64,000 nt of DNA from the NCBI GenBank assembly GCA_946186375.1, contig CAMHMZ010000003.1:86905-150904 (forward strand), in the 5' to 3' direction. Shown in pieces: positions 12,109 to 20,369 of this stretch (within the stretch, counting starts at the first letter, position 1; every line of letters starts with the position of its first letter). The stretch is from an uncultured Clostridia bacterium (GTDB lineage Bacteria; Bacillota; Clostridia; Oscillospirales; Oscillospiraceae). A model generated the notes under the pieces. That model made no database searches. It saw only the letters and a program-made list of their open reading frames with translations, and had not been told where the DNA came from. The translations under genes were made by a program, and so were the position numbers.

Positions 12109-12900
12109 TCAGCCGTAGGAGTGCAGGCCCGGCAGGAGCGTATTGACCCCGGCGAAGGTGAAGAACACGACCGGCACCGCGATGATGAGGTACCAGGCCA
12201 TCTTCACGCCCTGCTTTTTCGCGCGCAGGCGCAGGTGCAGATACACGGCGTAGATGATCCAGGTGATGAGCGCCCAGACCTCCTTCGGATCCCAGGTCCA
12301 GAAGGCCGACCAGGCCTGCTCGGCCCAGATGGCGCCGGAGAGGATGACGACCGTCAGAAACAGAAAGCCGAAGGCCACGAGGCGATAGCTCAGAAAGTCC
12401 ATCTGCTGCAAGCGCGCGTCCCCGGCGTCGGCGCCCTTTTTGACCGCGAGCACATAGCGCAGCCCCACGCAGCCGGCGAGCACGAAGGCCGCGTACGACA
12501 GCACCGCCGAGCCGATATGGATGCCGAACCAGCCGCTGCGCAGCGCGGGCATGAGGTCGTGGATCTCCATGGGCTGCAGCGCGGCATAGGTCAGCACGAG
12601 CAGCGCCATGGGCATGGCCGCGACGCTGAGCCAATCGGTCTTCATGCGGCCGCGCAGCACCGCGAGCATGAGCGCGATGCCCCAGGCGAAGGCGTTGGCA
12701 AACTCGAACTGGTTCGACAGCGGCAGCCGCCCGGCGGCGACGCCGCGCACGATGATAAACACCGTGTGCACGGCCAGCGCCCCCAGAAACACAAACCGCG
12801 CCGCCTTGAGAAGCTTTTCTTTTTTAAAGGCCGTACCGGCAAACTGCAGGATCACCGCCGCGGCGTAGATCAGAAACGCGGCAAAAAACAGGATCTTCAT
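12109..12900 (-). CDS. ccsA: Cytochrome c biogenesis protein CcsA (ResC)
   Basis: 263 residues, about eight membrane helices. It carries the haem-handling WWD segment GAIWAEQAWSAFWTWDPKEVWALITW (about 190-215), flanked by conserved histidines (IHIGSAVLSY, and HSYG at the end). With ResB it forms the System II haem exporter and cytochrome c synthase, attaching haem to CxxCH motifs outside the membrane. It overlaps resB by 4 bp, and the pentaheme nitrite reductase gene lies just upstream, its obvious client. Confidence 0.9.
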   Translation of the reverse strand: MKILFFAAFLIYAAAVILQFAGTAFKKEKLLKAARFVFLGALAVHTVFIIVRGVAAGRLPLSNQFEFANAFAWGIALMLAVLRGRMKTDWLSVAAMPMALLVLTYAALQPMEIHDLMPALRSGWFGIHIGSAVLSYAAFVLAGCVGLRYVLAVKKGADAGDARLQQMDFLSYRLVAFGFLFLTVVILSGAIWAEQAWSAFWTWDPKEVWALITWIIYAVYLHLRLRAKKQGVKMAWYLIIAVPVVFFTFAGVNTLLPGLHSYG

Positions 12901-14132
12901 GTTTCTTTCTCCCTTTCAAAAAGCGCCCGGAGCTCCAGGCGCGTGCCCTCCGGCTTCGGCCCGCCGACGGCGTAGCCCTCCCCGTCCACCTTGACCACCA
13001 CGGGCGGCAGGAAGAAGGTGATGAAGAGACCCGCGATCATCAGCACGAAGGAGGCAAAGAGCAGCGTCGTCACCGCGCCCGGCGTCACCTTGATGCGCAA
13101 TCCGGGGTATCTCGCCGGGTCGTTGAAGCGGAAGCTCAGCCCGCCGACCTCGACGACCGTGCCGGGGAAGGCCACCTCCTGGCTGCTCACCCCCTCCTCG
13201 CTGCGCTGCAGGAGGTACACGGGGTTCGGATAGTCGCCGGTGGCCGAGCCCGTCGGCGTCAGCACGCCCTCGGGCGTATAGTAGAAGTCGGGATAGACAG
13301 CCAGCACCCACAGCCCGTTATAGTTGTCGAGCGAGAGGAAGGCCGGGTCGGGCAGGAGAAAATCGTCGCTGCCGCCGGTGGCGACGTTCGTCACGGTGAC
13401 GGAGCCGGCCGTGCCGTAGGTCTGCTGATAGACCTTGTAGTTTCCAAAGGACAGCGGATGGTTGACGCTGATGACGCCGGTGCGGCTGCGCCCGTCGGGC
13501 AGCGTGATGGTGAGGTCGCTCGCGTAGTCGAGCTTGCCCTCGGCGTTCTGCGTGCGGAAGGCGCGCACGGCGAAGTTCGCCCCGTCGGGCAGCGTGACGC
13601 TCTCGCCGGGCATGCAGTCGAGATCCGTTACCTGCGGCAGATAGAGCCCCGCTGCGCCGAAAAGGACGGTCAGCAGGATGGCCAGGTGCGTGATGAAGCT
13701 GCCGCAGCGGCCGATAAGGCGCCGGGTGTAGACGCGCGCGCCGCCCGTCTCGGTTTTGCGGCAGCGCCGGGAGGCGAGAAAGCCCTCGAGCTTGGCAAGC
13801 TCCTCCGGCGTGAGCGCGGCCTCGTTCGGCAGCCGCGCCGCGCTTTCGTGGAGCGTCCGTCCGCCTTTGACGACCGACACGATGCGCACGAGCGAGCAGA
13901 GCGTGAGGTTGAGGCACAAGAGCGCAGTCAAAAGCACGAAATACCAGCTTTTGAAAAGTTCGTTGAGCTGCAGCACCAGCAGCACCGGGTGCGTCGTCGG
14001 GTAATTCTCCGCGTAAAAGGCGATCTCCCGCCCCTGCGGGATCAGCGAGCCGAGCACCGAGCAGACGCCGATCAGCGCCAGCAGCAGGATGCCGAAGCGC
14101 ATGGAGCGCAGCGTTTTCCAGATCTTTTTCAT
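12897..14132 (-). CDS. resB: Cytochrome c biogenesis protein ResB (Ccs1)
   Basis: 411 residues. Starts KKIWKTLRSMRFGILLLALIGVCSVLGSLIPQG, the ResB signature membrane entry; further helices lie at about 65-85 and 145-168, then a large external domain and a final helix near 370. It partners CcsA in System II cytochrome c maturation. The gene begins about 70 bp downstream of nrfA with a terminator hairpin between them, so ResB/CcsA may be expressed by readthrough or from a promoter near 14150. Confidence 0.88.
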   Translation of the reverse strand: MKKIWKTLRSMRFGILLLALIGVCSVLGSLIPQGREIAFYAENYPTTHPVLLVLQLNELFKSWYFVLLTALLCLNLTLCSLVRIVSVVKGGRTLHESAARLPNEAALTPEELAKLEGFLASRRCRKTETGGARVYTRRLIGRCGSFITHLAILLTVLFGAAGLYLPQVTDLDCMPGESVTLPDGANFAVRAFRTQNAEGKLDYASDLTITLPDGRSRTGVISVNHPLSFGNYKVYQQTYGTAGSVTVTNVATGGSDDFLLPDPAFLSLDNYNGLWVLAVYPDFYYTPEGVLTPTGSATGDYPNPVYLLQRSEEGVSSQEVAFPGTVVEVGGLSFRFNDPARYPGLRIKVTPGAVTTLLFASFVLMIAGLFITFFLPPVVVKVDGEGYAVGGPKPEGTRLELRALFEREKET

Positions 14133-14160: not shown

Positions 14161-14184
14161 ACGCCCGCCCTCTCGGGCGGGCGT
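14161..14184 (-). terminator. Terminator between nrfA and resB
   Basis: ACGCCCGCCC-TCTC-GGGCGGGCGT, perfect 10-bp arms, followed by TTTTTGC on the minus strand. It would reduce readthrough from nrfA into resB-ccsA. Confidence 0.75.
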
Positions 14185-14202: not shown

Positions 14203-15798
14203 TCAGGCGGCCTTGAACAGGCCCAGCGCCTCGTTGCACAGCGCCTCGGCCTTGTCCAGGCACTCGTGCGTCAGCGTCGGGTTGTGGGCGCCCTCGGCGT
14301 TCTCGACGAAGACAAAGTCCCAGTAGAACTGCGCGTCGCGCGCCAGAGCGCGGATCGCGTCGAGCTCGGCCTCGCTGTATTCGCCGCTCTCCACCGCGGC
14401 GGCCAGGCGCTCGGTGAGGAACTGCAGCTCATAGCCGATGGCGTAGGTGCGGCGCTCCACGGCCTCCTGCGAGGCGCGGACCTCCGCGACGAGGTCGACG
14501 TGGCACTTGGAGCACTCGTTCTCAATGAGCTCGGGGTTGTCCAGGGGGCTGATGAGGTAGTGGCTGGAGAAGGTCCTGCCGCTCTCGGACACGGTCTTGC
14601 CCATGTGGCAGTCGGCGCAGGTGTAAGCGTTGCGGTGCTGGCTGCCCTCGCCGAGGAAGGTCTCGAGCTCGGGGTGCTGCACCTTGATCTGCTTGACGCC
14701 GGTGCGGGGGTTGACGTAGTCATAGAAGGGCTCGCCCGTGGAGAAGTTCGAGCCGTCATTGTAGTAGGCCAGGATGGCGTCCGGGCTCATGCTGCTCAGG
14801 CTGTTGTGCGGCAGCGTGGTGGCGCCGGTGTCGGTGGCGAAGAAGTATTCGTTGTGGCACTGGCCGCAGGAGAGGGTAGCCGCGTCGATGCCCTCAAAGT
14901 CCTCGCCCACGCCGTCGGTCAGGAAGGTCTGGGTGACGACGAGGGTGCCGGGGGTGTTGGCGTGGCAGGTGTAGCAGCTGATGGGCTCGATGACCTTGTC
15001 GCGCACGTCCATGAAGGGCAGCGAGTAGATGCCGACGCCCTCCTCGTTGACGAGGTTCGTGAACTGCGGGGTCTTGCAGGTCCAGCAGCTGGCCTTGGAC
15101 TTTTCGCCGATGCGCTTGGTCTCCAGGATGTCGTCCATGGCGAACATGTGGCCGCGGGCGCTCTTATAGTCCTTGGAGAAGCCGTAGGGCTCATAGAGGG
15201 TCTTGAGCATGGGGTAGTCCACGAGATAATCGGTGGCTTCGCTGTTTTCGCTGTTCTGCGCCCAGGTGGCGTACTCGTCCGGGTACTGCTCGGACCAGTC
15301 GGTCGCCAGCTGCACGACGGCGCCGGAATGCGTCTCGACCTTCTGGGCGACGGTCTCCACCTTGACGAGGGAGCCGCCGAAGATCGCGGGCTTGATGCCG
15401 CCGCTTTCCAGGGCGCTGATGATGGCCGTCTTGATGGCCTCGGAGCTGATGGTCGCACCGCTGACCGCGTCCACCTTCAGGCTCTGCGCCTGGAAGATGC
15501 TCGCGGGCAGGCGCTTGACGGCCTCGGAGCCGATGCCCTGGGTCTCCTGCTGGTCGATGACCTTGATCTGGTAGAGCATGTTTTCGTCCGCCACGACGCG
15601 CACGGTCACGTCGCCGTTGCGGCCGGGAGCGGTGCCCTCCAGCGTCAGCGCGGTCGAGGGGATCTCCTTGTCCTTCACGCCGGCCGAGGCCGGGAGCTTG
15701 CTGACGATGATGCTGATCACGGCGATCAGAACCAGCAAAACGCCGCAGCCGATGCCGATCGTGTCAAGGAGCTTCTGTTTTTTCTTCTTGTCGGTCAT
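14203..15798 (-). CDS. nrfA: FMN-binding domain fused to NrfA pentaheme nitrite reductase
   Basis: 531 residues from ATG 15798 (GGAGGCGGAC upstream); the 747-residue ORF adds nothing plausible. Layout: cytoplasmic Lys-rich head, uncleaved membrane anchor (about 13-34), an FMN-binding domain with flavinylation motif DAVSGAT (Asp 110, Thr 116), then NrfA. Haem motifs: CWTCK (238-242, the lysine-ligated active-site haem diagnostic of NrfA), CYTCH (275), CGQCH (311), CADCH (394), CSKCH (429). Active-site blocks CGQCHNEYFF and KVQHPE match E. coli NrfA (Tyr and Gln/His). It reduces nitrite to ammonium outside the membrane. No nrfH is seen in the window; ccsA/resB follow. Confidence 0.9.
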   Translation of the reverse strand: MTDKKKKQKLLDTIGIGCGVLLVLIAVISIIVSKLPASAGVKDKEIPSTALTLEGTAPGRNGDVTVRVVADENMLYQIKVIDQQETQGIGSEAVKRLPASIFQAQSLKVDAVSGATISSEAIKTAIISALESGGIKPAIFGGSLVKVETVAQKVETHSGAVVQLATDWSEQYPDEYATWAQNSENSEATDYLVDYPMLKTLYEPYGFSKDYKSARGHMFAMDDILETKRIGEKSKASCWTCKTPQFTNLVNEEGVGIYSLPFMDVRDKVIEPISCYTCHANTPGTLVVTQTFLTDGVGEDFEGIDAATLSCGQCHNEYFFATDTGATTLPHNSLSSMSPDAILAYYNDGSNFSTGEPFYDYVNPRTGVKQIKVQHPELETFLGEGSQHRNAYTCADCHMGKTVSESGRTFSSHYLISPLDNPELIENECSKCHVDLVAEVRASQEAVERRTYAIGYELQFLTERLAAAVESGEYSEAELDAIRALARDAQFYWDFVFVENAEGAHNPTLTHECLDKAEALCNEALGLFKAA

Positions 15799-15884: not shown

Positions 15885-15960
15885 GGTTTTCAGCTTTTAA
15901 AAGAGAAACGGGAATTAATCGCTCTCCTGAAAACTGAAAACTGACTTCTGAAAACTGAAA
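15885..15960. repeat. Composite intergenic repeat, copy c
   Basis: The gap upstream of nrfA (15799-16013) contains GGTTTTCAGCTTTTAAAAGAG, AAACGGGAATTAATCG and CTGAAAACTGAAAACTGAC modules shared with the other intergenic blocks. No gene. Confidence 0.65.
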
Positions 15961-15996
15961 AAAGCGCCCCCGGGCAACCGCCCGGGGACGCTTTTG
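15961..15996 (-). terminator. Terminator of the InlB-repeat/Ig surface protein
   Basis: AAAGCG-CCCCGGGC-AACC-GCCCGGGG-ACGCTTT, with AAAAAA before it, 17 bp after the stop of the 824-residue gene. Confidence 0.8.
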
Positions 15997-16013: not shown

Positions 16014-18488
16014 CTACTTGACAGCCAGCATAGCGGGCTGACTGTAGACCGTGCCGCTGCTGTCCGAGATCGCGCAGCGATACTCGTAGCCGCTGCGCTT
16101 GGCCGTGGCCTTCACCTTCAGCGTGGCGCTCTGGTAGCCCTCGGTTTTGCTGCTGCAGTTTTTCCAGCTGCCGCTCGACGAGGTACGGTACTGCCACTGA
16201 TAGCTCAGGCCCGTACCGGTCGCCTTGACCGTGAAGCTCACCTTCTCGCCCAGCTTGGCGGAGACGTTTTTCGGCTGCGCCGTAATCTCCAGCTTTGCCT
16301 TCGATACGCTCAGCGTGGCGGCCCTGGTCGTGACCGCGCCTCCCTCGCCGGAGACCACGCAGCGGTACTGATAGCCGTTCTTCTTTGCCGTTACAGACAC
16401 CTTCAGCGTCGCGGTCCTGTTGCCTGCCGCGGGCGAATTCTTCCACGTGCCGCCGTCAGAAGTGCGATACTGCCACTGATAGCTCAGTTCCTCGCCCTTT
16501 GCCGTCACGGTGAAGATCGCCTTGCTGCCGGCCTTGGCGGTGACGCTCTTCGGCTGTGTCTCGATCACGGGCTTGAGCAGGACCGTCAGCGTGACCGCCT
16601 TGCTGTAGACCTTGCCAACGTCGTTTTTGACGATGCAGCGATACTGATAGCCGTCACGCTTGGCCGCCGCGGTCACCTGCAGCGTCGCGGTCTTGCAGCC
16701 CTCCGCAGAGGACTTTTTCCAGGACGCGTCGGCGGATTTCCGGTACTGCCACTGGTAGCTCAGGCCCTCGCCTTCCGCTGCGACCGTAAAGCTGACCGTC
16801 TTGTCTTCCGCCGCCTTGGCGCTCGCCGGCTGGGTCTTGATCACGGGCTTGAAGGCCGACAAGGTCAGTGTCGCCGGCTCAGAGGCAACGCTCCCGGCGC
16901 TGTTCTTGACCACGCAGCGGTACTGATAGCCGTTGCGCTTGACGGTGGCCGGCACCGTCAGCGTTGCGGTCTTGTTGCCCGCCGCGGGCGAAGCTTTCCA
17001 CTTGCCTGTTGAAGAGGTCCGATACTGCCACTGATAGCTCAGCTCCTCGCCCTCGGCCGAGACCTTGAAGCTCAGTTTCTCCCCTTCCTTGGCAGAGGCG
17101 CTCTCGGGCTGCTCTTTGATCACAGGCGCGGTCATCTCTTCCCAAACGGCGTAGAGCGTGACCGTCGCGTTGCCGTTGACAAGCTCCGGGCAGAGGGTCT
17201 CGGGCTTCAGACTCTCGTCCGCCGGGTCATAGACCTTCGCGTCGCTCTTCGTGCTCAGCGCCCAGCCCGCGAAGGTATAGCCGCTGCGGCTCAGACCGAG
17301 AGCGGAAGCGTCGAACAGAACGTCCTTATTGGCCGAGCCGTAGCCCCAGCTCGACTGCAGCTCCGCCGCGTCCTTCAGGATCTTGCCGGAGGGATCCGAG
17401 CTGTACGGAGCCTTGGAAGCGGTGCCGCCGTTGGCGTTGTACTTCACCGTCAGCGTGTAGGCCTCCCAGACGGCATAGAGCGTGACGCTCCTGTTATCGC
17501 TGTACAGCCCGCCCGGCTGATACTGCGCGGTCGCGGCGTTGTTTGTCGTGGCCCAGCCCTTGAAAACGCAGCCGGTGCGCGTCGGACGCACGTTCTGCAG
17601 TACGACGCTCGCGCCGCTCAGCTTATACTGGGCCGCTGGCGCGCCGGTGCCGCCGTTGGCGTCGTAAGAGATCTTGTAGCCCTTGGTAAAGCTGGTGGAT
17701 TTGCTGGCCGTGCTGCCGTTGACGTCGGTAGCCTCGACCGAGTAAATAAAGCTTCCCGCAGCAAGCTTGTCAAAGATAAAGGCGTCGTTCAGGCCGTCTG
17801 TATGGATGTTATAGGTCTTGCTGCTCCAGTTTCTGGCATACAGGAAGCCGGTCTGTACTTCGCCCGTATCGGCGTTCTTCACCGTGGCCTCGATCTTGGC
17901 GAGGTTGACGGTGGAGCTGATCGTGCCGTACAGCCCGAAGATCGTCATCGTCGGGTAATCCCCGCTCGGCCCTCTGAAATCCGCGCCGAAGCTGACGGTG
18001 GAGACCTTCTGCTGATCCCAGATGGCATAGAAGGTGTAGGTGCTGTCGCCGTTATAGCCGTAGGTCCAGGACGCGTCAAAGGTCCGCACCGCCTTGTCGG
18101 GATAGACAGCCTTCTCAAGATTATCGTTGCTGATCTGGGTCTCGCTCAGCCAGCCCTTTCCGATGACGAACCATTTCCCGTCGCCGTTGCGCCTGGCATT
18201 CCAGCCCTGGAACGTGGCGCTGCCATTGGTAAAGCTGTTGGCCGGGAGGGTAAACTGCTTCCCGTAGGCGACAGAGACGGCGTTCATGGTCCCGCTGCCG
18301 CCGTTGGCGTTAAAGTAGAAGGTGTAGCTGGACGCCGAAGGGATGCTGGGCCTGGCCGCCTCCGCAAATGCCGCGGAGGGCAGCAGGGACAGGCACAGCA
18401 GAAGCACCAGCGTCAGGGTCAAAGCGCGCTTCATCCCTGCGCCAACAGGGCTTTTTTCTGTTCTTTGCGATTGAAGAGTAGCCTTCAT
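16014..18488 (-). CDS. Secreted InlB-repeat / Ig-like surface protein
   Basis: 824 residues. The ATG at 18488 has AGGGGGCG upstream; an alternative ATG at 18434 starts exactly at the hydrophobic signal (MKRALTLTLVLLLCLSLLPSAAFA). Domains: about three InlB B-repeat (Listeria-Bacteroides) units with FNANGGSG, YDANGGTGAP and YNANGGTA hallmarks to about 450, then four to five tandem Ig-like domains of about 88 residues with LSYQWQYRTSSTGKW and KRNGYQYRCVV strands. No cell-wall sorting signal. Probably an extracellular adhesin or matrix protein; the ligand is unknown. It ends at its own terminator and is transcribed separately from the LRR/Fn3 gene upstream. Confidence 0.8.
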   Translation of the reverse strand: MKATLQSQRTEKSPVGAGMKRALTLTLVLLLCLSLLPSAAFAEAARPSIPSASSYTFYFNANGGSGTMNAVSVAYGKQFTLPANSFTNGSATFQGWNARRNGDGKWFVIGKGWLSETQISNDNLEKAVYPDKAVRTFDASWTYGYNGDSTYTFYAIWDQQKVSTVSFGADFRGPSGDYPTMTIFGLYGTISSTVNLAKIEATVKNADTGEVQTGFLYARNWSSKTYNIHTDGLNDAFIFDKLAAGSFIYSVEATDVNGSTASKSTSFTKGYKISYDANGGTGAPAAQYKLSGASVVLQNVRPTRTGCVFKGWATTNNAATAQYQPGGLYSDNRSVTLYAVWEAYTLTVKYNANGGTASKAPYSSDPSGKILKDAAELQSSWGYGSANKDVLFDASALGLSRSGYTFAGWALSTKSDAKVYDPADESLKPETLCPELVNGNATVTLYAVWEEMTAPVIKEQPESASAKEGEKLSFKVSAEGEELSYQWQYRTSSTGKWKASPAAGNKTATLTVPATVKRNGYQYRCVVKNSAGSVASEPATLTLSAFKPVIKTQPASAKAAEDKTVSFTVAAEGEGLSYQWQYRKSADASWKKSSAEGCKTATLQVTAAAKRDGYQYRCIVKNDVGKVYSKAVTLTVLLKPVIETQPKSVTAKAGSKAIFTVTAKGEELSYQWQYRTSDGGTWKNSPAAGNRTATLKVSVTAKKNGYQYRCVVSGEGGAVTTRAATLSVSKAKLEITAQPKNVSAKLGEKVSFTVKATGTGLSYQWQYRTSSSGSWKNCSSKTEGYQSATLKVKATAKRSGYEYRCAISDSSGTVYSQPAMLAVK

Positions 18489-18656: not shown

Positions 18657-20369
18657 TTATTTAGCCGTGAGGCTCACGACCGGGCTGTAGGCGCTCTTCA
18701 GCTCCAGCCCATCTCCGGTCACGGCGCGCACTTTATAGTACCAGGTCTCGCCCGCCTTGGCCTTCGTATCCGTATACCAGAGGCTTGCCGTGGTTTTTAC
18801 GCGCTTGAAGCTGCCGTCAGCTCCCGTTTCGCTGCGCCAGATCTGATACTTGACCGCGCCGTCGACATCCTTCCAGCTCAGCGTGGGCTTGCCCTTGTCA
18901 TTCAGGCTTCCTGTCACCTTCGGCGCCGCGGGCCTGATCGTCAGCTGCACGATCTTGCTGTACTCGCCCTTGACGCCGTCCGCTTTTATGGCGCGCACTT
19001 TATAGAAATACGTCGAGCTGACCTCGAGCTTGCGGCTCGTATAGCTCAGGTCTGTCGTGGTCTTGACAAGCTTGAAGGTACCAGCTTCGCCTGAGTCGCT
19101 GCGCCAAACCTGATACTTTGCCGCGCCCTCAACGGCCTTCCAGCTCAGCACGGGACTGCCCTTGTCGTTGAGCTTGCCCGTCACCTTCGGTGCGGCGGGC
19201 TTGGCTGTCTTCGCCGTCAGCTTGACGACCTTGCTGTAGCCGGTCTTCGCGCCGTCGGCGCTGACCGCGCGCACCTTGTACCAATAGGTCTTGCCGGCCT
19301 CAGCCTTGCCGTTCGTGAAGCTCAGCGCAGAGGTCGTAGTGATGCGCTTGAAGGGGCCGCTCTTGCTGGTGGCGCGATAGACCTGATATTTCACAGCGCC
19401 TTCGACCGGATACCAGGTCAGCACAGGCTTGCCCTTGGTGTTGACCTTTCCCTCCAAAATCGTCTTGCGGAAGCTGCCGATGCCGCGCACGACCTCCACG
19501 CCCTTGTCCGTGATGATGTCGTTGTCATGTGCCGGCGCCTGGGGATGCAGATAGAGCTTTTTCAAAGGATTTTTCTCGATGTAGACAATCTCTATCTTGG
19601 GACAAAAGCTGAGATCGAGCGCCTCCAGCTTGTTATCCATGGCGCTGAACTGGAACAAAGCCTTGTTGTGGCTGAAATCCAGTTCGGTGATGGCGTTATA
19701 GTCGCAAAGGACGGTCCCCAGCACGGCATTTTTGCTGACGTCCAGCTTTGTCAGCTCATCGTTGGCGCATTCGAGATACTGCAGCTTCGGGCAGCGGCTC
19801 AGATCGAGGCTCCCGAGCGGGTTATCAGAGCAGCGTAGCTCCTCGAGCGTGGCGCTGTCGGCCTTCAGAGAGCTCATCTGATTATTTGCGCATGCGACAT
19901 GCTTAAGCGATTTCCCCTCGGAAAGGTCGAGCGACTGCAGCATATTCCCGCCGCAATAGAGGATCTCGAGCGCGGGGAAAGCGCTCAGATCCAGCTCGGT
20001 CAGGCGATTATCCATGCAGTAGAGCTCGATCAGCTTATCGTTCTTGTAGGAGCCGAAGGTCGTGATCTGGTTGGCGGCGCAGTAGATCATCGTCACTTCG
20101 GTGAAGTACTCGATGCCCTTCAGGTTTTTGACCCCACTGTCGTAAAAATACAGATCCGTCGCCGCTTCGATCTCCTTCGCGCTCAGCTTTCCGTTGTGAT
20201 CGAGATCCTTGATCGTACGCACATAGGCGCGGAAATTCGCATCCGGGAAGTTTTTCTCGTTGATCGCGATGCTTGTCGCATTGTCCGCCGCGAGCGCCGC
20301 GGGAATGAGCGAGACACACAGCAGCATGGCCAGTGCCAGAGACAACAGCCGTTTGATGGTTTTACTCAT
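18657..20369 (-). CDS. Secreted LRR / fibronectin III surface protein
   Basis: 570 residues. Signal peptide (about 1-28, ending AALAA), EF-hand-like loop DLDHNGKLSAKEIE, about ten LRRs with the L..L.C..N spacing to about 285, then three fibronectin type III domains, each with a VEGAVKYQVYR-like strand and Y.YKVRAV. No anchor motif. The organisation mirrors the protein at 6064 with Fn3 replacing Ig domains. GGAAGGCATCCAC precedes the ATG. Likely a secreted interaction protein; target unknown. Confidence 0.8.
   Translation of the reverse strand: MSKTIKRLLSLALAMLLCVSLIPAALAADNATSIAINEKNFPDANFRAYVRTIKDLDHNGKLSAKEIEAATDLYFYDSGVKNLKGIEYFTEVTMIYCAANQITTFGSYKNDKLIELYCMDNRLTELDLSAFPALEILYCGGNMLQSLDLSEGKSLKHVACANNQMSSLKADSATLEELRCSDNPLGSLDLSRCPKLQYLECANDELTKLDVSKNAVLGTVLCDYNAITELDFSHNKALFQFSAMDNKLEALDLSFCPKIEIVYIEKNPLKKLYLHPQAPAHDNDIITDKGVEVVRGIGSFRKTILEGKVNTKGKPVLTWYPVEGAVKYQVYRATSKSGPFKRITTTSALSFTNGKAEAGKTYWYKVRAVSADGAKTGYSKVVKLTAKTAKPAAPKVTGKLNDKGSPVLSWKAVEGAAKYQVWRSDSGEAGTFKLVKTTTDLSYTSRKLEVSSTYFYKVRAIKADGVKGEYSKIVQLTIRPAAPKVTGSLNDKGKPTLSWKDVDGAVKYQIWRSETGADGSFKRVKTTASLWYTDTKAKAGETWYYKVRAVTGDGLELKSAYSPVVSLTAK

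Follow-up and report, generated by a model that had tools for sequence, protein, structure and literature searches.

How does an ammonia-forming nitrite reductase obtain its electrons when its genome offers no recognizable quinol-oxidizing partner? The question arises from a gene in the 64,000-nucleotide stretch of DNA analyzed here (the window), which belongs to an uncultured member of the Oscillospiraceae and joins an FMN-binding domain to a pentaheme NrfA cytochrome. The original prediction described a single polypeptide in which a membrane anchor and an FMN-binding domain with a DAVSGAT motif precede an NrfA with all five heme motifs, including CWTCK, and each of these elements was borne out by the following features.

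14203..15798, minus strand: FMN_bind–NrfA fusion gene, an ORF of 531 amino acids plus stop with its ATG at 15798, domains assigned by Pfam
15808-15804, minus strand: Shine–Dalgarno GGAGG, five bases before the ATG of the fusion gene
15697..15765, minus strand: N-terminal membrane anchor helix, about residues 12–34, from a hydrophobic stretch and AlphaFold2 helix 2–34
15406..15624, minus strand: FMN_bind domain, residues 59–131 (PF04205, E 3.6e-14; Foldseek match to 8p2b)
15451..15471, minus strand: DAVSGAT flavinylation motif, residues 110–116, with predicted acceptor T116, by sequence motif
14227..15300, minus strand: pentaheme NrfA domain, residues 167–524 (PF02335, Cytochrom_C552, E 1.2e-73; matches to PDB 1gu6 and 2vr0)
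15073..15087, minus strand: catalytic heme 1 motif CWTCK, residues 238–242, by sequence motif
14962..14976, minus strand: heme motif CYTCH, residues 275–279, by sequence motif
14854..14868, minus strand: heme motif CGQCH, residues 311–315, by sequence motif
14605..14619, minus strand: heme motif CADCH, residues 394–398, by sequence motif
14500..14514, minus strand: heme motif CSKCH, residues 429–433, by sequence motif

We confirmed that positions 14203-15798 hold one intact gene, and the profile check foreseen for FMN_bind and NrfA was positive for both, with PF04205 and Cytochrom_C552 each exceeding its curated Pfam cut-off. An assembly chimera or a chance junction can be excluded because the same architecture recurs in the 53 fused ORFs listed (45 of them distinct). 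A second apparent flavinylation motif, ETHSGAV, was rejected as a chance match, leaving a single FMN domain. With its acceptor motif and N-terminal anchor, the protein meets the description of an extracytosolic FMN_bind protein, and the source genome contains the apbE expected for ApbE-flavinylated proteins; covalent attachment of FMN to the threonine is inferred. The protein does not qualify as an RnfG, scoring 35 bits against an rnfG model with a cut-off of 102.

The cytochrome portion satisfies the criterion by which an NrfA is recognized, a CXXCK heme together with an active site of Arg, Tyr and His (K242, R229, Y318 and H375). In an alignment with the Escherichia coli enzyme (1gu6), residues R229, K242, E317, Y318, K372, Q374 and H375 align with R106, K126, E215, Y216, K261, Q263 and H264, which we take to be the active-site residues of E. 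coli NrfA and whose spacing we checked on the alignment. The catalytic Lys, Tyr and His are invariant in all 105 homologues, the Arg is present in 103 and the other catalytic and Ca-site residues in 99, while candidate distal histidines at positions 217, 388, 413 and 505 are conserved in 104–105 of the 105. Judged from its sequence, the window protein is an intact NrfA with four bis-His hemes and one Lys-ligated heme, and is probably active. It meets every sequence test for NrfA membership except the narrow NCBIfam equivalog NF008339, against which it scores 195.9 bits, below the cut-off of 595; on the alignment evidence, we read this low score as distance from the proteins behind the model rather than as a loss of NrfA features, and nitrite reduction itself is inferred. 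An AlphaFold2 model built from the 105-sequence alignment (pLDDT 94.3, pTM 0.87), which contains neither heme nor FMN, matches the NrfA structures 2rdz and 1gu6 in Foldseek with an RMSD of 2.5 Å, and its FMN_bind part matches 8p2b with an RMSD of 1.5–2.1 Å and a TM score of 0.85–0.89 (by target length). An earlier model from 13 sequences, with a pLDDT of 61, was discarded.

The absence of NrfH, predicted for the window, holds there and extends to the whole genome and to 30 relatives. No NrfH (PF03264) was detected in the window or in the source genome (a 3.3-Mb assembly of 133 contigs, 84% complete), even at an E value of 0.1. That genome contains one NrfA, two ApbE (PF02424), two RnfD-type and three FMN_bind genes; the genome-wide search proposed for nrfH, apbE and rnf-like genes thus returned no NrfH partner, two apbE and two rnf-type loci. 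Neither computational ground for rejecting the original prediction, a pairing nrfH elsewhere or a missing FMN_bind match, was borne out. NrfA occurs in 31 of the 401 genomes of the family, the source genome included, and PF03264 exceeded its cut-off in 0 of the other 30, several of which are at least 98% complete. The same query found a PF03264 (NrfH/NapC-type) protein in 26 of 30 NrfA-bearing genomes from elsewhere in the phylum, and the four carriers without one all belong to the same class as the source genome. In three of these four, the NrfA has a lipobox-like signal at its start, and resB-ccsA comes next. Loci L199–L202, from Clostridia of the same class, have a lipoprotein-like NrfA and resB-ccsA, with no NrfH. 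Because NrfA without NrfH is found in these other Clostridia as well, the absence is an older clostridial trait and the fusion a later one; loss of NrfH was clade-wide and predates the FMN fusion rather than resulting from it. Weak PF03264 matches in four relatives were rejected as NrfH: two lie inside NrfA itself, and two fall below the cut-off and do not adjoin nrfA.

Partners of the NrfBCD type were assessed through multiheme neighbors of nrfA, PF03264 being the only profile query, and none of more than 100 loci had another multiheme ORF less than ~10 kb from nrfA. By these searches, the window protein fails the test of membership in the NrfH-linked quinol system. Menaquinone marker genes, for which only MenD and MqnA were used, are not convincingly present in the genomes searched, with MenD over its cut-off in 0 of 20 genomes and weak matches to MqnA in three of the 20, none of them in the source genome.

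What accompanies nrfA instead is a pair of cytochrome c synthesis genes, which lie downstream on the same strand, with two terminator-like elements around nrfA:

12897..14132, minus strand: resB (ccs1), cytochrome c synthesis, downstream of nrfA in the same operon (PF05140, E 2.8e-42)
12109..12900, minus strand: ccsA (ResC/CcsB-type), cytochrome c synthesis, overlapping resB by 4 bp (PF01578; TIGR03144 over cut-off)
15960..15995, minus strand: strong intrinsic terminator of the upstream Ig-repeat gene, a 16-bp stem and T tract
14162..14179, minus strand: terminator-like hairpin between nrfA and resB, a 6-bp G+C stem and T5

The order nrfA-resB-ccsA is the constant core of nearly all of the more than 100 related loci, so that resB-ccsA belongs integrally to the nrfA locus. 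NrfI of Wolinella is the only confirmed CXXCK-recognizing System II synthase named in a 2025 review (PMC12285233). Since the System II synthase encoded here must load a CXXCK heme, we infer that the ResB-CcsA pair is likely a split functional counterpart of NrfI. The strong terminator after the Ig-repeat gene indicates that nrfA opens its own transcription unit; a promoter scan found no sigma-70 promoter for nrfA. The hairpin between nrfA and resB may serve in attenuation, a function that is inferred. Upstream of nrfA on the minus strand, the window encodes two neighboring proteins, a secreted repeat protein with Listeria-Bacteroides repeats and four Ig-like domains (16014-18488) and a secreted protein with leucine-rich repeats and fibronectin III-like domains (18657-20369). 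At the g84 locus, the upstream genes (for a competence protein and DNA polymerase III delta) are unrelated. A Crp/Fnr-type regulator (cNMP_binding plus HTH_Crp_2) adjoins nrfA, often divergently, in L046, L057, L060, L086, L119, L144 and about 20 further loci, and is missing beside nrfA in the window.

The fusion belongs to a sizeable family. A contig profile scan recovered at least 80 loci, mostly from rumen and other ruminant-gut MAGs of the Oscillospiraceae and Ruminococcaceae; among the matches listed, the remainder come from other Clostridia, Erysipelotrichaceae/Solobacterium, one Lachnospiraceae and one Treponema. At least 53 ORFs, mostly of ruminant-gut Oscillospiraceae, are fused (45 distinct domain sequences, with identity up to 80–84%), and all 53 fused ORFs listed keep the D..[STGA]GAT flavinylation motif with its acceptor Thr, which lies a median of 122 residues before the first heme Cys. 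In L084, an apparently deviant acceptor site, DAFGGAS, was dismissed as a second match, the true motif being DATSGAT. On the NrfA tree, the NrfH-less FMN-NrfA clade is separate from known NrfA with strong support, and within the tree the FMN domain has been gained or lost several times, and some relatives lack both the fused FMN domain and an adjoining Rnf. L109 and L124 are typed there as unfused, their genes being cut by contig ends, and the NrfA of L149 has a long N terminus without an FMN motif.

Some members carry more than one FMN domain. The NrfA of L106 has two, and in four Oscillibacter-type loci (L115:9332-12776, L116, L118 and L120) a two-FMN NrfA is followed directly by a plain NrfA, the two forms being sister groups on the NrfA tree. 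At L135:8222-11473, a protein of 1083 amino acids combines five FMN_bind domains with NrfA and is possibly a flavin wire with a nitrite reductase at its end; the ccsA/resB order is reversed behind this gene.

A tree of the FMN domains, limited in resolution by its 100 columns and midpoint root, groups the single-FMN domains with those of FMN_bind–FAD_binding_2 reductases, apart from RnfG, and places the multi-FMN domains in a group with RnfG. At least two separate acquisitions of the domain are likely on this tree. A source in RnfG for the single-FMN domain, raised by an NCBIfam match, was dropped after the domain tree. In three loci, a gene for an FMN_bind plus FAD_binding_2 (fumarate-reductase-like) protein stands directly upstream of a fused nrfA (L087:7784-9946, L096:7820-9829 and L107:5397-7397).

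The most direct pointer to an electron donor comes from relatives in which nrfA is unfused. In ten loci, nrfA directly follows rnfB in the order rnfC-rnfDG-rnfE-rnfA-rnfB-nrfA-resB-ccsA (some cut by contig ends), so that in these related genera the respiratory genes of the rnf operon end with nrfA. The spacing between rnfB and nrfA is 24 nt in L044, 12 nt in L127 and −1 nt (a 1-nt overlap) in L061, and in L061 rnfC, the fused rnfD+rnfG, rnfE, rnfA and rnfB all exceed their NCBIfam subfamily cut-offs. The RnfD–RnfG fusion, of 517–527 amino acids, is seen in the nrfA-ending operons of L044, L045, L055, L058, L061 and L062. The NrfAs of these operons fall at two positions on the tree: eight form a fully supported group, and that of L127 stands beside the two-FMN Oscillibacter enzymes. 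This double occurrence makes Rnf or another flavin-based membrane complex the likely donor. In L056, a fused nrfA operon is convergent with an adjoining complete rnf operon. From these arrangements, the FMN fusion and the rnf operon look like alternatives, each connecting this one NrfA clade with flavin-based electron transfer. The suggestion that the enzyme is coupled to such transfer rather than to NrfH is therefore supported by the rnf-nrfA operons in related genera, the flow of electrons itself being inferred.

For the source genome, where nrfA lies outside any rnf operon, the link to Rnf rests by analogy on these relatives. The genome-wide searches for apbE and rnf covered the source genome and not its relatives. 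Contig C18 holds a complete rnf locus with rnfC, D, G (carrying DALSGAT), E, A and B, and a second, Rnf-like cluster lies on the same contig as nrfA (C3, of which the window covers 86905-150904), ~37 kb away:

L042:3894-8600 (G000:C3, ~57.9-62.6 kb): the second, Rnf-like cluster, whose RnfA and RnfE score low

This cluster comprises rnfC, rnfD, a gene for an FMN_bind protein and low-scoring homologues of rnfE and rnfA, with an ApbE gene nearby. No rnfB was seen in it, and it is possibly a one-way flavin electron exporter.

Taken with good though incomplete confidence, our reading is that the product of the window gene is an ammonia-forming nitrite reductase, self-wired and anchored in the membrane, which is fed by a flavin-based complex, most likely Rnf. 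ApbE would attach FMN to T116 outside the membrane, and this FMN would take electrons from Rnf (complete rnfCDGEAB) or from the Rnf-like complex ~37 kb away and hand them singly to the bis-His hemes, whence they would pass to the Lys-ligated catalytic heme, where nitrite would be converted to ammonium. The ResB-CcsA pair of the same operon would attach the five hemes, the CXXCK one included. Such a flavin route would replace menaquinol-NrfH (or NrfBCD), and a fermenting, apparently quinone-free Clostridium could thereby dispose of ferredoxin or NADH electrons on nitrite. The domains, motifs, catalytic residues, operon, lack of NrfH, presence of apbE and rnf and conservation in relatives can be read from the sequences; flavinylation, FMN-to-heme transfer, Rnf as the donor and nitrite as the substrate are inferred. 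On a broader proposal we lean neither way: that ferredoxin to Rnf to covalent FMN to NrfA is a fourth, quinone-independent supply of NrfA, with the rnf-nrfA operon, one-FMN and multi-FMN forms interchangeable among rumen and gut Clostridia. Bacterial Rnf would on this view act as a respiratory ferredoxin:nitrite oxidoreductase.

The donor is the part of this scheme most readily exchanged. A donor other than Rnf could serve the single-FMN domain, given its grouping with the domains of FAD_binding_2 reductases, three genes for which stand upstream of fused nrfA, and the Rnf-like complex near ApbE in the source genome, which has no visible RnfB, also fits a scheme in which electrons enter through the FMN domain from some other membrane flavin or NADH dehydrogenase, as in Gram-positive extracellular electron transfer or with flavinylated fumarate reductases. 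We find this doubtful, albeit worth keeping in mind, since Rnf-nrfA operons occur twice within this NrfA clade and the source genome has a complete Rnf. It is also conceivable that the FMN domain is vestigial or a mere anchor, the hemes being fed directly by Rnf or an unknown donor as in the unfused relatives. Retention of the acceptor Thr in all 53 fused ORFs listed speaks against this, and multiplication of the domain to two and five copies argues for its use in electron transfer; although many close relatives lack the domain, and the tree records several gains or losses, we judge the idea quite improbable.

Nor need nitrite be the main substrate. The complete NrfA catalytic set, with its Tyr, His, Arg, Lys and Ca-site residues, makes it unlikely that the enzyme serves chiefly to convert or detoxify another compound (hydroxylamine, NO or sulfite) rather than in nitrite respiration, but NO and hydroxylamine are additional substrates of known NrfA enzymes (PMC8840924), and the Crp/Fnr-type regulator beside nrfA in many relatives would fit such a role. 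Finally, an ordinary NrfH or NrfBCD partner might be hidden in the missing 16% of the source genome. A partner missed in an 84%-complete genome is possible, less so in the 30 relatives, where even the assemblies of at least 98% completeness have no PF03264 over the cut-off; with the same query positive in 26 of 30 other carriers and no neighboring multiheme gene in more than 100 loci, we give this explanation hardly any credence. We therefore retain the flavin-fed, self-wired enzyme as the preferred reading.

The known redox partners of NrfA, namely NrfH, CymA and NrfB, are all quinol-linked according to the 2025 review, which mentions neither FMN nor Rnf (PMC12285233), and we found no description of an FMN-NrfA or Rnf-NrfA in the open-licence PMC literature. 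The window protein shares with NrfHA (Desulfovibrio vulgaris, 2j7a/2vr0; Wolinella) and with the NrfBCD-linked NrfA of E. coli (1gu6) the pentaheme fold, CXXCK heme, Arg/Tyr/His and Ca-site residues. Unlike these systems, it lacks NrfH, has its own membrane helix and FMN_bind domain and belongs to a separate clade.

Within the literature consulted, the nearest precedents are the pairing of MmcA with Rnf in archaea and a multi-flavinylated, multiheme RnfG noted in 2021. MmcA is a heptaheme cytochrome encoded in the Rnf operon of Methanosarcina acetivorans, and the pair establishes that ferredoxin electrons can travel through Rnf to an extracytosolic multiheme cytochrome; according to the same paper, Bacteria in which Rnf serves ferredoxin/NAD transfer have no MmcA (PMC11024163). 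The likeness lies in a multiheme c-type cytochrome encoded with Rnf and in ferredoxin electrons carried outside the membrane; MmcA, however, is related to octaheme tetrathionate reductases and reduces methanophenazine, whereas in the present case the cytochrome is itself the terminal reductase and in its fused form carries FMN. In the text of Meheust et al. (2021, PMC8238504), Christensenellales are reported to have multi-flavinylated RnfG proteins, some with a multiheme domain, and a bifurcating Rnf side path is proposed. These likewise join FMN_bind domains to a multiheme cytochrome and possibly overlap with the multi-FMN NrfA forms, but in that text the protein is described as RnfG and its cytochrome is not identified as NrfA, whereas here an NrfA is encoded in an operon with its own resB-ccsA. 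Flavinylated reductases that combine FMN_bind with FAD_binding_2, such as the Listeria fumarate reductase, place the same plug-in module on an extracytosolic reductase, but the catalytic part of the present fusion is a pentaheme NrfA rather than a flavoenzyme. Of the solved FMN_bind domains, domain 1 of CbFMN4 (PDB 8p2b) is nearest in both sequence and fold; it belongs to a multi-FMN protein that is not joined to NrfA.

If these enzymes are indeed flavin- and Rnf-driven, nitrite ammonification would be open to quinone-free fermenters, and bacterial Rnf would gain a respiratory outlet like that of MmcA in archaea. The carriers listed are mostly ruminant-gut Clostridia, in a setting where nitrite poisons the host animal and dietary nitrate is given as a hydrogen sink to lower methane; a rumen study counts nrfA genes without describing a flavin electron route (PMC10811737). 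The single-FMN, multi-FMN and operonic versions offer ready material for studies of flavin-to-heme wiring. One further FMN_bind fusion was seen near an unfused nrfA, at a distance of ~9 kb, where the domain is joined to a TSCPD domain (L131:364-1095).
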